From positions 1 through 36,724 of the forward strand of contig CALVKD010000058.1 in NCBI GenBank assembly GCA_944332525.1: DNA of 36,724 nucleotides, given 5' to 3'. The position numbers were made by a program, and so were the translations under genes. The DNA is from an uncultured Bacilli bacterium (GTDB taxonomy: Bacteria > Bacillota_I > Bacilli_A > RFN20 > CAG-449). Positions 19,769 through 23,801 of the stretch are shown one piece after another. The notes beneath the pieces were generated by a model that was given only the letters and a program-made list of their open reading frames with translations, did not search any database and had not been told where the DNA came from. How positions within the stretch are numbered: the stretch's first letter is position 1; each line of letters starts with the position of its first letter.

Positions 19769-20216
19769 ATTAATCGCGACTAATCGCCGGGCGAGCTATG
19801 AGTATTTTCTTTCTTCACCAATTGAATGCGGCATTGTTTTAACCGGAACAGAGATTAAATCCTTAAGAAAACATTCCTGTTCGCTTCAAGATGCATATGT
19901 CATTATCAAAGGCCATGAGGCTTTTATTCTCGGAATGCATATCGCTCCATATGAGCAGGGAACAATTTATAATCACGCGGAGACGCGGACCCGTAAATTA
20001 TTGCTGCATAAAAAGGAAATTTTAAAATTGGAAGGTAAAATTTCTCAGCAGGGATATACTCTTATTGCGACAAAAGTTTATCTTTCCAAAGGTCGAGCAA
20101 AGGTTGAAATTTGCTTGGCTAAAGGTAAAAAACTTTATGATAAACGCGAAGATTTAAAAAATAAGTCCCAGCAGAGAGAAATGCTCGCAAAACAGAAAGA
20201 ATACAATAATCGATGA
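19752..20216 (+). CDS. smpB: SsrA (tmRNA)-binding protein SmpB
   Basis: Binds tmRNA and delivers it to stalled ribosomes. The 154-residue protein shows the oligonucleotide-binding fold: NRRASYEYF, LTGTEIKSLR, SLQDAYV and ETRTRKLLLHKKEI. A basic C-terminal tail follows (KGKKLYDKREDLKNKSQQREM). Its start codon lies inside rnr behind AGGAGAAG. The TGA stop is part of the following terminator. No tmRNA gene was found next to it. Confidence 0.97.
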   Translation: MVREDKLIATNRRASYEYFLSSPIECGIVLTGTEIKSLRKHSCSLQDAYVIIKGHEAFILGMHIAPYEQGTIYNHAETRTRKLLLHKKEILKLEGKISQQGYTLIATKVYLSKGRAKVEICLAKGKKLYDKREDLKNKSQQREMLAKQKEYNNR

Positions 20217-20235
20217 CCATATGGTCATCTTTTTT
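20212..20235 (+). terminator. Terminator overlapping the smpB stop
   Basis: GATGACC (20212-20218), loop ATAT, GGTCATC (20223-20229) and six T. The whole stem is a perfect palindrome, and the smpB stop codon (20214-20216) lies within its 5' arm. Confidence 0.85.
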
Positions 20236-20286
20236 ATATAAAATTTTAATATAGGTATTAACCTTAATTTTTCTTTTTCTCTTTGA

Positions 20287-20315
20287 TTGTAATAAGGTTA
20301 TTTATTAGTTATAAT
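20287..20315 (+). promoter_or_regulatory. Promoter of the acidic membrane protein gene
   Basis: TTGTAA (20287-20292), a 17-bp spacer and TATAAT (20310-20315). The predicted transcript start (about 20322) leaves a 15-base leader containing AGGGAAG. This decides the start codon at 20337 rather than the in-frame TTG at 20283. Confidence 0.8.
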
Positions 20316-20336
20316 TTTTTTAGGGAAGTTTTAGCT

Positions 20337-22571
20337 ATGAAAAGAAAAATATTTTTGTCAATCATCCTAATTCTGGAACTTGTGGTTTTAGTTGCTCTGT
20401 TTATCGATCCAGTTAGAGATTTAATCGTCTCTGTGTGGCCGATGTTTGGAACAATTCATAGTCATATTTCCAATGCTTTTAGCCAGTTTACTAGTTTAAT
20501 TAAGCTCAACTGGTATCAATCGTTGCCATCATTTATTCAGCGTTTATTGGTAGTGATAGTGTTTAATATCGCCTTCATTATCGTCTATGCTATAGTGTTC
20601 GGTATTATTGCTTATGCAATTAGAAAACATAAGCAGAAAAAACTCTTGCAAGCCGGAAAAGAAATCCATCTCACCGATGAAGAAAATGCTAAATATGAGT
20701 GGAAACTCTATGAGCAACGCTTTCCAAAAAGAAGACTTTTATCTCTGCTTATTCCTATTATAATTTTTGCTTTGTTTATCTTACTGCGTTACGATACGAC
20801 AATTTGCGCGCGTTATGATAATTATCATCACGGCGTCTTCGATTTCTTTGGAACGATTGAACCTTATCTTTTCGGTTTAGGACAATATATCTCTGATGCA
20901 ATTGGAGCATATATCCGTTTAAATAACGCAATCGTTGCTAAACTCGGAGTCACCTATGTTGAATGGATTGAAATCGCTGTAGCGTTTATCTTAGTTTGCT
21001 TAATCTGGTGGGGATTCTTCTCTATCTTTGCTAAACCATTTAGAATCCATCATGCGAAAAAGAGAGCTAATAAAGCTAAGAAAAAATATATTATCAAGAT
21101 GGAAAACATTGAGTATAAAGCTTTGAAAAAGGCTAAGAAAGAAGATGCTAATTCCAAAAAAGTTCAGGATTTATATAATCAGGATGTCGAAGCTCCTCAA
21201 GAAGAAGCGAAAATTGAAAATATTGCTAAAACTTATGATGATAAAGCTAATGCCAAATTGCCTGATGATGGCAGCTTAAGTCAAGACGCTAAAGATTATA
21301 TTGATGATATTGCAACGGGAATTGTCGATTTAGGTGTTGTTGACGAAGATAACGATGAATTACAAAAGCCTTTACTCTCTCGTCAATCGCATTTCGTCGG
21401 CGAAGAAGAAATTGATATTAAACTTGAAGAAGAACCATTAATTGAAACAGTTGAAGAAGAGGAAGAATATTATCAAGGCGAAGATAGTGATGAAATCTCT
21501 GATTTTGAACATTATCAAAGCGATAATGGTTTCTCTCTAGAACTTGAAGATAAGGTTAGAAAATATAACGTTGATACTGTTCAAGATGACCAAGATGTAG
21601 TGAAGTATCAAGATGATAATGTCGCTATTCATGAATACGAAGACGTTAATTCTAATAAAGTCGTTAAAGAAGAAAAGAAGGAACAATATTTCACACCTAA
21701 CTACGTTGAGGAAGAAAGTTTCTTAGTAGCGATGGTTGATGAAAAAGAAGATAATGATCAACTTACTGAAGAAGAAGTTAATCAAGAAAATAAAGAAGTC
21801 GCTAGCGATGAAGAAACTATTTTTACTCCGACTGAAGCTATTAAAGAAGAAATGGAAGAGACTGCTGAAATTCCATCTGAAGAAACAGAATCTGTAACTG
21901 AAGAAGATAATTTACCTCAGGAGACAGAAGAAGTTAAGGAAGAAATTGTAACTGAAACTGCTGAAAATAAGCCAGAAGAAAAAGTAGAAATAACTGAAAC
22001 AGTGACAGAAACTATTGCTGAAGAAATTACCCCAGAAAAAGATGAAGAAATCGCCGTTGAAGAAACGATAACAGAAACTGTTGAACCTGAAGAAGAAATT
22101 ACTTCATCTAGCGGCATCATCGCTCAAGATGTTGTTGACCGCGATAGCGTTTCATTAGATACTGATGGAGTCGCTTTAGATTTAGTTGAAGATAAAGCTC
22201 AAGATAATAACGATTTGTATTTAGATAACATTGAGGCGACAATCAGCGAAGAAGATAAAAATAGAAAAGAAGCTGAACAGAGAGCTTTAAGAGCGGCTTT
22301 AGAAAGAAAGAGACAAGAAGCTCAAGAAAAAGCTGTTGAAGAGAAAATTGAAAAAGAAAAAGCGGGTATTTTAGCAAATAATTTGTCAGATAGTTCTTCT
22401 CATGGCAAGATTAAACCATTAAAGAGTAGAGATATTCGCGGAGCGATGAATGCTTATCTCTTAAAAGCTGAAGAAAGTAAGCCGCGGAGCGATGAAGACT
22501 TACTGCTTTCTAAGCCTTTAACTAAAATTCGCGAGAAGAAAAATATTAAGCCTTTAAACGTTAAAAAGTAA
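20337..22571 (+). CDS. Four-span membrane protein with long acidic cytoplasmic tail, function unknown
   Basis: I do not recognise this 744-residue protein. Hydrophobic helices lie at about 5-23, 70-95, 133-151 and 209-231, with a basic stretch (KKRANKAKKKYI) after the fourth. From about residue 300 the chain is very rich in Glu, Asp, Thr and Val. The most repetitive part (about 500-600) has irregular TETV, TETI and EEIT units. The C-terminus is different: a charged helix (AEQRALRAALERKRQEAQEKA) and a basic end with IKPLKSRDIRGAMNAYLLKA that looks conserved. The probable topology is a membrane anchor with a disordered spacer leading to a short cytoplasmic interaction module. It has its own promoter and terminator, so it is monocistronic. 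A scaffold or envelope role is only a guess. Confidence 0.7.
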   Translation: MKRKIFLSIILILELVVLVALFIDPVRDLIVSVWPMFGTIHSHISNAFSQFTSLIKLNWYQSLPSFIQRLLVVIVFNIAFIIVYAIVFGIIAYAIRKHKQKKLLQAGKEIHLTDEENAKYEWKLYEQRFPKRRLLSLLIPIIIFALFILLRYDTTICARYDNYHHGVFDFFGTIEPYLFGLGQYISDAIGAYIRLNNAIVAKLGVTYVEWIEIAVAFILVCLIWWGFFSIFAKPFRIHHAKKRANKAKKKYIIKMENIEYKALKKAKKEDANSKKVQDLYNQDVEAPQEEAKIENIAKTYDDKANAKLPDDGSLSQDAKDYIDDIATGIVDLGVVDEDNDELQKPLLSRQSHFVGEEEIDIKLEEEPLIETVEEEEEYYQGEDSDEISDFEHYQSDNGFSLELEDKVRKYNVDTVQDDQDVVKYQDDNVAIHEYEDVNSNKVVKEEKKEQYFTPNYVEEESFLVAMVDEKEDNDQLTEEEVNQENKEVASDEETIFTPTEAIKEEMEETAEIPSEETESVTEEDNLPQETEEVKEEIVTETAENKPEEKVEITETVTETIAEEITPEKDEEIAVEETITETVEPEEEITSSSGIIAQDVVDRDSVSLDTDGVALDLVEDKAQDNNDLYLDNIEATISEEDKNRKEAEQRALRAALERKRQEAQEKAVEEKIEKEKAGILANNLSDSSSHGKIKPLKSRDIRGAMNAYLLKAEESKPRSDEDLLLSKPLTKIREKKNIKPLNVKK

Positions 22572-22576
22572 TTTAG

Positions 22577-22603
22577 GAGGTTAGTTATCTAACCTCTTTT
22601 TTT
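22577..22603 (+). terminator. Terminator after the acidic membrane protein gene
   Basis: GAGGTTAG (22577-22584), loop TTAT, CTAACCTC (22589-22596) and seven T. Confidence 0.9.
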
Positions 22604-22679: not shown

Positions 22680-23801
22680 ATGAGTGATGAATTAAATAAA
22701 AATGTTCCGGAAAAAGAAAGTGAAAATTCTCAAACTCCGGAAGTAAAAAATCCAGAAACAAATGCACAACCTGTTGAAGAAAAAAAAGAAGAAACAAGCC
22801 CAGTGGTTGAAGTTAAAGAAGAAAAAACTGAAGAAGTAGCCTCCGAAGAGGGCAAAAATGAATTTTTAAAGCCAGTTAAAGCTAGACATATTTCTTCGGT
22901 TAGCGAAGAGATGGAAACCTATAACAAAAAAGTTGATGCTTTCAATGTTGAATATAAGCAATCAAGGCGCATTAATATTATTTTATTAATTGTTGTGGCC
23001 ATCATTTTCATCGGATCGGTCGCTCTTAGCTCGGTAATTGGTCAAGCTTATATCTTTATCTTAATTGGCGGAGTTGTTCTTTATTTTGTCTTAACAACCG
23101 TATTTTCTAAAAAGACTCAAAAGAAAATAACAGCGAAAGCCAACGAAATTCTTAATGATTATTTTGCTTTCAATGATTCTTATGCCTATAATGACGAAGC
23201 TTTCAGTGATGTAATGTTTGATTATAACGTTAAACTTGATCCATCTTATTTACTCTCTTTAGATATTTTTAAAGATGTCGATAGCGTAGCCGGTAGAGAT
23301 TTAGTTAAAGGTAAATTATTAGGAATTGATTTCTTGGCCGGTGATGGCTCAATTAAGACTAAAGAAGTAAATGAAAAAGGTAAAAATATCTTAGCTATAG
23401 TTTTCTATGGTAAAGCCGTATTCTTAGAAAAAAGCTATATTAATGATGGACGCTTAGTCGTTTATCTTAAAGGTAAAGGTAATGATGCCCCAACAAATGT
23501 TGATGGTTTAGAAGTTGTTAATACACCTTTATCTGAACGCTTTGTTGTCTATAGTGAAAAAGGTAATGAAAAAATCTTAACGAAAAAGGTTTGTGATGCG
23601 ATTGAAAAGATGGAAATTAATGATAATCTCTATGATTTCTTCATCGTTTTCAATAATCAAAGAACTATTTTCCTCTTCTCTTATAGCGATGAGATGATGG
23701 TTATCAGCGTTGATCACCATCTTGAAGAAAAGCTTGTTGAACAATATCCTTCAGATGCTAGAAAGATGGTTGAAATCGTTAAAGCCTTAGAAACGAAGTG
23801 A
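22680..23801 (+). CDS. DUF3137-like two-span membrane protein
   Basis: Protein of 373 residues. Residues 1-60 are acidic and probably disordered (EEKKEETSPVVEVKEEKTEE). A basic patch precedes two adjacent helices (about 98-116 and 124-141), and a cytoplasmic domain of about 230 residues follows. That domain has the order expected for DUF3137: VKGKLLGIDFLAGD, an IVFYGKAVFLE strand, and TPLSERFVVYSEKGNEKILT before a final mixed region. The similarity is by eye and not certain. The function of the family is unknown. It is coupled to the following phosphatase gene, whose possible GTG start overlaps the stop. The ribosome site is weak (ATGAGGT). Confidence 0.6.
   Translation: MSDELNKNVPEKESENSQTPEVKNPETNAQPVEEKKEETSPVVEVKEEKTEEVASEEGKNEFLKPVKARHISSVSEEMETYNKKVDAFNVEYKQSRRINIILLIVVAIIFIGSVALSSVIGQAYIFILIGGVVLYFVLTTVFSKKTQKKITAKANEILNDYFAFNDSYAYNDEAFSDVMFDYNVKLDPSYLLSLDIFKDVDSVAGRDLVKGKLLGIDFLAGDGSIKTKEVNEKGKNILAIVFYGKAVFLEKSYINDGRLVVYLKGKGNDAPTNVDGLEVVNTPLSERFVVYSEKGNEKILTKKVCDAIEKMEINDNLYDFFIVFNNQRTIFLFSYSDEMMVISVDHHLEEKLVEQYPSDARKMVEIVKALETK

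Follow-up and report, generated by a model that had tools for sequence, protein, structure and literature searches.

What kind of protein is encoded by a gene of 744 codons for which the preliminary description could name no family, and what might this protein do in the cell? The gene lies in a stretch of 36,724 nt (hereafter the window) from the genome of an uncultured member of the Bacilli, G000.

Gene call, frame and codon changes

The following features were recognised at the gene and around it:

20212..20229, + strand: terminator-like hairpin 3′ of smpB, upstream of the 744-aa gene
20287..20315, + strand: promoter-like TTGTAA-17-TATAAT, by sequence pattern
20322..20326, + strand: AGGGA, possible ribosome-binding site by sequence, 10 nt before the ATG
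20337..22571, + strand: gene of the 744-aa protein (four-TM anchor and acidic tail), ATG to stop
22575..22598, + strand: terminator-like hairpin 3′ of the 744-aa gene

The coordinates and the frame first given for the gene were correct (ATG at 20337, stop at 22571, 744 aa). A longer frame is possible, from a TTG start at 20283, 54 nt 5′ of the ATG; we preferred the ATG because M1 and K2 are unchanged in 16 of 16 aligned relatives. The terminator-like hairpins on both sides suggest a single-gene unit. As for the strong, independent expression signals claimed earlier, the promoter-like site, the hairpins and the possible AGGGA site are there, but promoter-like sites are no commoner in the window than in shuffles (11 versus 11.2 expected), and the claim holds only in part. 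The protein is single-copy in G000 (whole-protein search, E 1).

For the selection comparison we considered one pair of genomes of the same genus, G000 and G001, over 744 codons with no gaps. Synonymous and nonsynonymous changes were, respectively, 25 and 9 in residues 1-235, the transmembrane (TM) part (pN/pS 0.10), 11 and 0 in residues 236-395 (pN/pS 0), 31 and 14 in residues 396-690, the spacer (pN/pS 0.11), and 4 and 0, a small count, in residues 691-744 (pN/pS 0). The gene encodes a real protein: synonymous changes outweigh nonsynonymous ones in every region.

Over 14 relatives, mean identity is highest in the juxtamembrane block (35%), lower in the TM part (29%) and lowest in the spacer (11%), in which 35% of the alignment is gaps and the length differs widely from one relative to another. 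This variability is consistent with a tail that is neutral, fast-drifting low-complexity sequence with no function. However, the spacer pN/pS given above and the persistence of both the acidity and the C-terminal motifs argue against such a neutral tail, which we regard as very improbable. Judged from the codons, the spacer changes fast and yet is under purifying selection.

Membrane anchor and acidic tail

Within the protein we considered the following segments:

20349..20405, + strand: TM1, residues 5-23 (hydropathy)
20544..20600, + strand: TM2, residues 70-88 (hydropathy)
20670..20735, + strand: motif LTDEENAKYEWKLYEQRFPKRR of the cytosolic TM2-TM3 loop, residues 112-133 (alignment)
20736..20792, + strand: TM3, residues 134-152 (hydropathy)
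20973..21029, + strand: TM4, residues 213-231 (hydropathy; one continuous helix 208-282 in the model)
21054..21122, + strand: basic juxtamembrane helix AKKRANKAKKKYIIKMENIEYKA, residues 240-262 (alignment, model)
21165..22406, + strand: acidic tail, residues 277-690, net charge -96
21297..21338, + strand: conserved motif YIDDIATGIVDLGV, residues 321-334 (23-sequence alignment: no change at Y321 and G333, almost none at G328 and D331)
21378..21467, + strand: conserved acidic motif SRQSHFVGEEEIDIKLEEEPLIETVEEEEE, residues 348-377 (D360, L363, E366 and E373 invariant in 16 sequences)
21504..21527, + strand: F(F)E.Y motif FEHYQSDN, residues 390-397 (E391 and Y393 invariant in 16 sequences)
22410..22475, + strand: C-terminal motif 1 IKPLKSRDIRGAMNAYLLKAEE, residues 692-713
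22542..22568, + strand: C-terminal motif 2 NIKPLNVKK, residues 736-744

Hydropathy gives four membrane segments, as expected from the membrane-anchored, four-helix architecture first proposed, and the basic helix after TM4 is common to the relatives. The loops assigned to the outside have net charges of +1 (TM1-TM2) and -2 (TM3-TM4), those assigned to the inside +6 (TM2-TM3) and +13 (residues 233-276). By this positive-inside bias both termini and the tail would be cytosolic, which argues against the envelope role that had been suggested for the tail. The AlphaFold2 model, built on 23 sequences with the C-terminus not included, has helices to residue 282 (block pLDDT 59-88) and values mostly below 50 from residue 283 onward. 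The mean pLDDT is 68, and the pTM, 0.38, is too low to fix the packing of the TM helices.

In the TM part, P140, R151, D153 and W224 are invariant within the GTDB family of the window (f1), and given these residues the TM part may be more than an anchor. The four helices could even be the working part of the protein, as a sensor, a channel or a transporter regulator, with the tail as its gate or read-out; consistent with this, outside the genus of the window (g1) the gene comes, in several relatives, after feoB- or opp-like genes, among others. Nevertheless, the upstream neighbours vary by genus, R151 and D153 are not both retained in f4-g35 or in f5, and Foldseek with the protein model returned nothing at E 0.001 or better, with the viral library likewise. 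We consider this explanation distinctly unlikely.

In the internal repeat test, the hairpin profiles can be aligned over TM2/TM4 with probability 93, versus 1.9 for the reversed control. An internal hairpin repeat in the 744-aa protein itself is no more than likely, as a TM helix flanked by basic residues could account for part of the score. The second hairpin also matches two copies in the homologue of G028 (E 1e-5 and 0.001), which is compatible with an origin by duplication of a hairpin. That homologue (L074:629-4561), of 1310 aa, comprises two complete TM-hairpin units and a tail about 900 residues long; each unit combines a pre-TM motif with two TM helices and the basic helix AxxRAxxAxxxY (inter-copy E 6e-12).

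Asp and Glu make up 32% of residues 277-690, and the most acidic span of 300 residues has a charge of -86, the runner-up among the window's proteins with 300 aa or more having -25. After residue 260, D/E amount to 19-32% in all 18 sequences measured. The acidic tail is probably disordered. It had been described as an acidic spacer of 300 residues, and the long Glu-rich stretch is indeed there, but the tail is not a bare spacer, because a conserved juxtamembrane block and motifs at the C-terminal end lie within it. The block, common to the relatives, consists of YIDDIxxGVxDLGV and flanking motifs; K275, Y321, G328, D331-G333, D360, L363, E366, E373, E391 and Y393 are invariant in 16 f1 sequences, and Y321, G333 and D360 are still so over 23 sequences from three families.

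The C-terminus is basic, as first noted (residues 691-744, net +9), and a search of G000 with these 54 aa gave no second match (E 10). The sequence SRDIRGAMNAYLLKA, once singled out there, does not stand as a conserved C-terminal unit: it is retained in G001 and altered in G002 only, and the IKP[LIV] core is all that the wider family has in common with it. Across 24 relatives, we counted 58 [IVL]KP[IVL] motifs in the tails versus 3.4 expected, in a shuffle test that preserves composition and not local order and that counts close relatives though they are not independent; low-complexity tails can, moreover, seem motif-rich. Of these motifs, 39 of 58 are at most 100 residues from the C-end. At least one is present in 20 of the 24 relatives, at least two in 11 and none in 4, and the lone motifs of G007 and of G016 are far from the C-end. 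Motifs of the DPFxxYR type replace [IVL]KP[IVL] or stand beside it in G010, G013, G014, G007 and G017, and several members of g3 have repeats of this type.

Known families and distribution among genomes

None of Pfam, NCBIfam, PHROGs, the PDB sequence search and Foldseek named a family, and the protein is thus as unmatched as it was first said to be; no enzyme domain was found in the family searches, and none of the paper titles and abstract openings listed for related topics (MPN262, disordered scaffolds, FtsK, RNase E, MapZ, RF39/Mollicutes) describes such a protein. VIA-align of the protein model gave 24 chains (best Z 4.9), with helical arrangements only. DUF3899 (PF13038) scored 15.9 bits with the whole protein and 17.7 with residues 1-397, below its curated cut-off of 23.4.

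The N-terminal part of FtsK/SpoIIIE also consists of four TM helices followed by a long low-complexity linker. To this extent the two are alike, but the 744-aa protein has no motor domain: no RecA-like motor was found in Pfam at E 1 or in NCBIfam (16 members). The FtsK TM model gave no Pfam match at E 1, and the fold comparison was not strong enough to exclude a remote similarity.

The best NCBIfam match was MPN262 (NF045745), at E 2.5e-5, covering TM4 and the region that follows, in 2 of 16 members only. We rejected membership of MPN262/RNase Y, the score being 23.2 bits versus a curated cut-off of 800, a cut-off exceeded in 0 of 395 class genomes. The Mycoplasma protein MG_123/MPN_262, described as a distant RNase Y homologue (PMC13047044), is alike in this weak match over the TM4 region. 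The scaffold domain of RNase E in the RNA degradosome is a tail that gathers partners via short linear motifs (PMC11964227), whereas the 744-aa protein has another anchor, no RNase E catalytic domain (Pfam, NCBIfam) and no shared sequence that we found.

Another comparable protein is MapZ of Streptococcus pneumoniae, a membrane-anchored protein whose long cytosolic part is mostly disordered, has conserved binding regions and binds FtsZ (PMC7055233). MapZ has only one TM helix; its cytosolic part, 159 residues long, is N-terminal, and a folded domain at its C-terminus is extracellular. In contrast, the 744-aa protein has four TM helices, a C-terminal tail that is cytosolic by charge, and no extracellular domain. 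The likeness agrees with a cell-division or chromosome-organising scaffold in the manner of MapZ, ZipA or the FtsK linker, whose tail would take hold, at mid-cell, of FtsZ or some other cytosolic machine. G000 does have FtsZ, and a SepF match is absent in 3 of 3 g1 genomes (G000, G001, G002). However, SepF is found in 12 of the 15 remaining f1 genomes, the loci read show no division gene next to the 744-aa gene, and most of the order has FtsZ with no detected 744-aa family. Moreover, the FtsZ anchor is not missing in G000, because FtsA is encoded beside ftsZ (G000:C1), and for this reason we rejected a substitute for a missing anchor. A division role is possible, and with FtsA and FtsZ both present no result here favours it; the scaffold of this kind seems to us unlikely.

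We define the family by four TM helices, the basic helix, the YIDDIxxGVxDLGV block, the acidic tail and the C-terminal KP motifs, all of which the 744-aa protein has: it represents a new, narrow protein family of recognisable kind. A first search, with the N-terminal 266 aa at E 0.01, gave matches in 19 of 98 relatives. A second one, using a 16-sequence profile of residues 1-397 at E 0.001, gave matches in 28 of 279 genomes of the order. We accepted 25 of the 28 and left out as weak G131 and G036, whose stretches, as far as read, hold no long-tailed ORF with four TM helices at the site, and G023, with internal stops. The family is present in 16 of 18 f1 genomes (none in G004 and G015) and is patchy in two other families of the order, with accepted members in f4-g35 (G090, G196, G197, G198) and in f5 (G028, G033, G038, G050, G074), the frame of G050 being interrupted by a contig end. 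Gene order upstream of ung added two members, G021 (632 aa, four TM) and G078 (a C-terminal fragment), for a total of 27.

Outside the order, no convincing member was found in the class sample (395 genomes) or in the phylum sample (275 genomes). The best class match, at 41.5 bits, was a 501-aa ORF of G606 with one TM, and those of G383 and G401 were similar; a wider family in class or phylum was rejected, the best phylum match outside the order having only 21.8 bits. In the class family f17, one-TM proteins of 501 and 507 aa (L115:1704-3209 and L117:3351-4874) match the profile over TM4 and the basic helix at 41.5 and 29.3 bits. For the two class-level one-TM candidates scanned, all Pfam matches fell below the cut-offs.

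Neighbouring genes and proposed role

In g1 the gene order is rnr, smpB, the 744-aa gene, a homologue of the downstream gene at 22680, and DUF402; as the rnr-smpB arrangement was seen in g1 only, an RNase R/SmpB partner by gene order was rejected. The downstream gene is the following:

22680..23801, + strand: neighbour, 373 aa, TM hairpin and beta-rich domain, not an obligate partner

The preliminary description proposed one system with this gene, and the co-occurrence check does not bear it out. All 27 accepted genomes with the 744-aa family carry a 22680 homologue, but this family is order-wide (241 of 274 genomes), and in 214 of the 241 no 744-aa family was detected. Co-occurrence thus shows no special tie, and we rejected an obligate pairing. 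The acidic start noted for the 22680 protein is real, but among the aligned relatives a long acidic N-terminus is found mainly in g1 and g2.

The 22680 model (mean pLDDT 79) resembles mycobacterial TtfA (6t84; Z 10.8, 171 residues, rmsd 3.7) and the large eukaryotic ribosome-translocon chains 7tm3_4, 9i78_4 and 6w6l_7 (Z 9.8, 8.8 and 6.7), which we take to be CCDC47. Foldseek with this model gave no E under 0.1, and we found no paper naming TtfA and CCDC47 together. Residues 62-72 of the 22680 protein, FLKPVKARHIS, are akin to IKPLKSRDIRG of the 744-aa protein; they were seen only in G000 and G001 among 15 homologues, and lie at a disorder-to-order turn of the model, with a two-residue strand at 66-67.

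A tighter neighbour than the 22680 gene is ung, which comes immediately after the homologue at 14 of 25 loci, over three GTDB families, with anything from a 47 nt overlap to a 3 nt gap (12 loci by motif; G008 and G011 by locus reading, with a -4 overlap). Since some Ung inhibitors imitate DNA, the acidic tail could be a DNA mimic that tethers or controls uracil-DNA glycosylase near the membrane. Against such a tether, in g1 and g3 the gene is not beside ung and yet the tail is retained, and ung is present in 92 of 98 relatives versus 19 of 98 for the 744-aa family; we give it very little credence. In g2 (L099, L101, L103:985-1440), a 151-aa ORF beyond ung looks, presumably, like a GerQ-type spore coat protein.

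Among the explanations considered we favour, as somewhat more probable than otherwise, a lineage-specific membrane scaffold or tether that would dock putative cytosolic partners by short motifs, a reading drawn from anatomy and conservation. Precisely, two TM hairpins (N-in, C-in) would hold the protein in the cytoplasmic membrane and TM4 would extend into the cytosol as the basic helix. The juxtamembrane block (YIDDIxxGVxDLGV with the motifs that follow) and the basic C-terminal [IVL]KP[IVL] motifs would be the docking sites, and the polyanionic stretch of about 300 residues between them an extended, self-repelling spacer keeping a captured partner off the membrane. MapZ and RNase E scaffold by short docking motifs on a flexible tail, each in its own way (PMC7055233, PMC11964227).

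More doubtfully, the family may be a class of membrane organisers peculiar to the order, whose four-helix anchor and polyanionic tail would offer two kinds of putative docking motif (YIDDIxxGVxDLGV close to the membrane, IKP[LIV] at a distance) to conserved cytosolic machines, the 22680 protein being one candidate. Conserved membrane proteins unnamed by profile libraries occur in Bacilli with small genomes, represented here solely by metagenome-assembled genomes, and, with putative docking motifs readable from sequence, two short peptides may serve as direct baits for membrane-organised partners.
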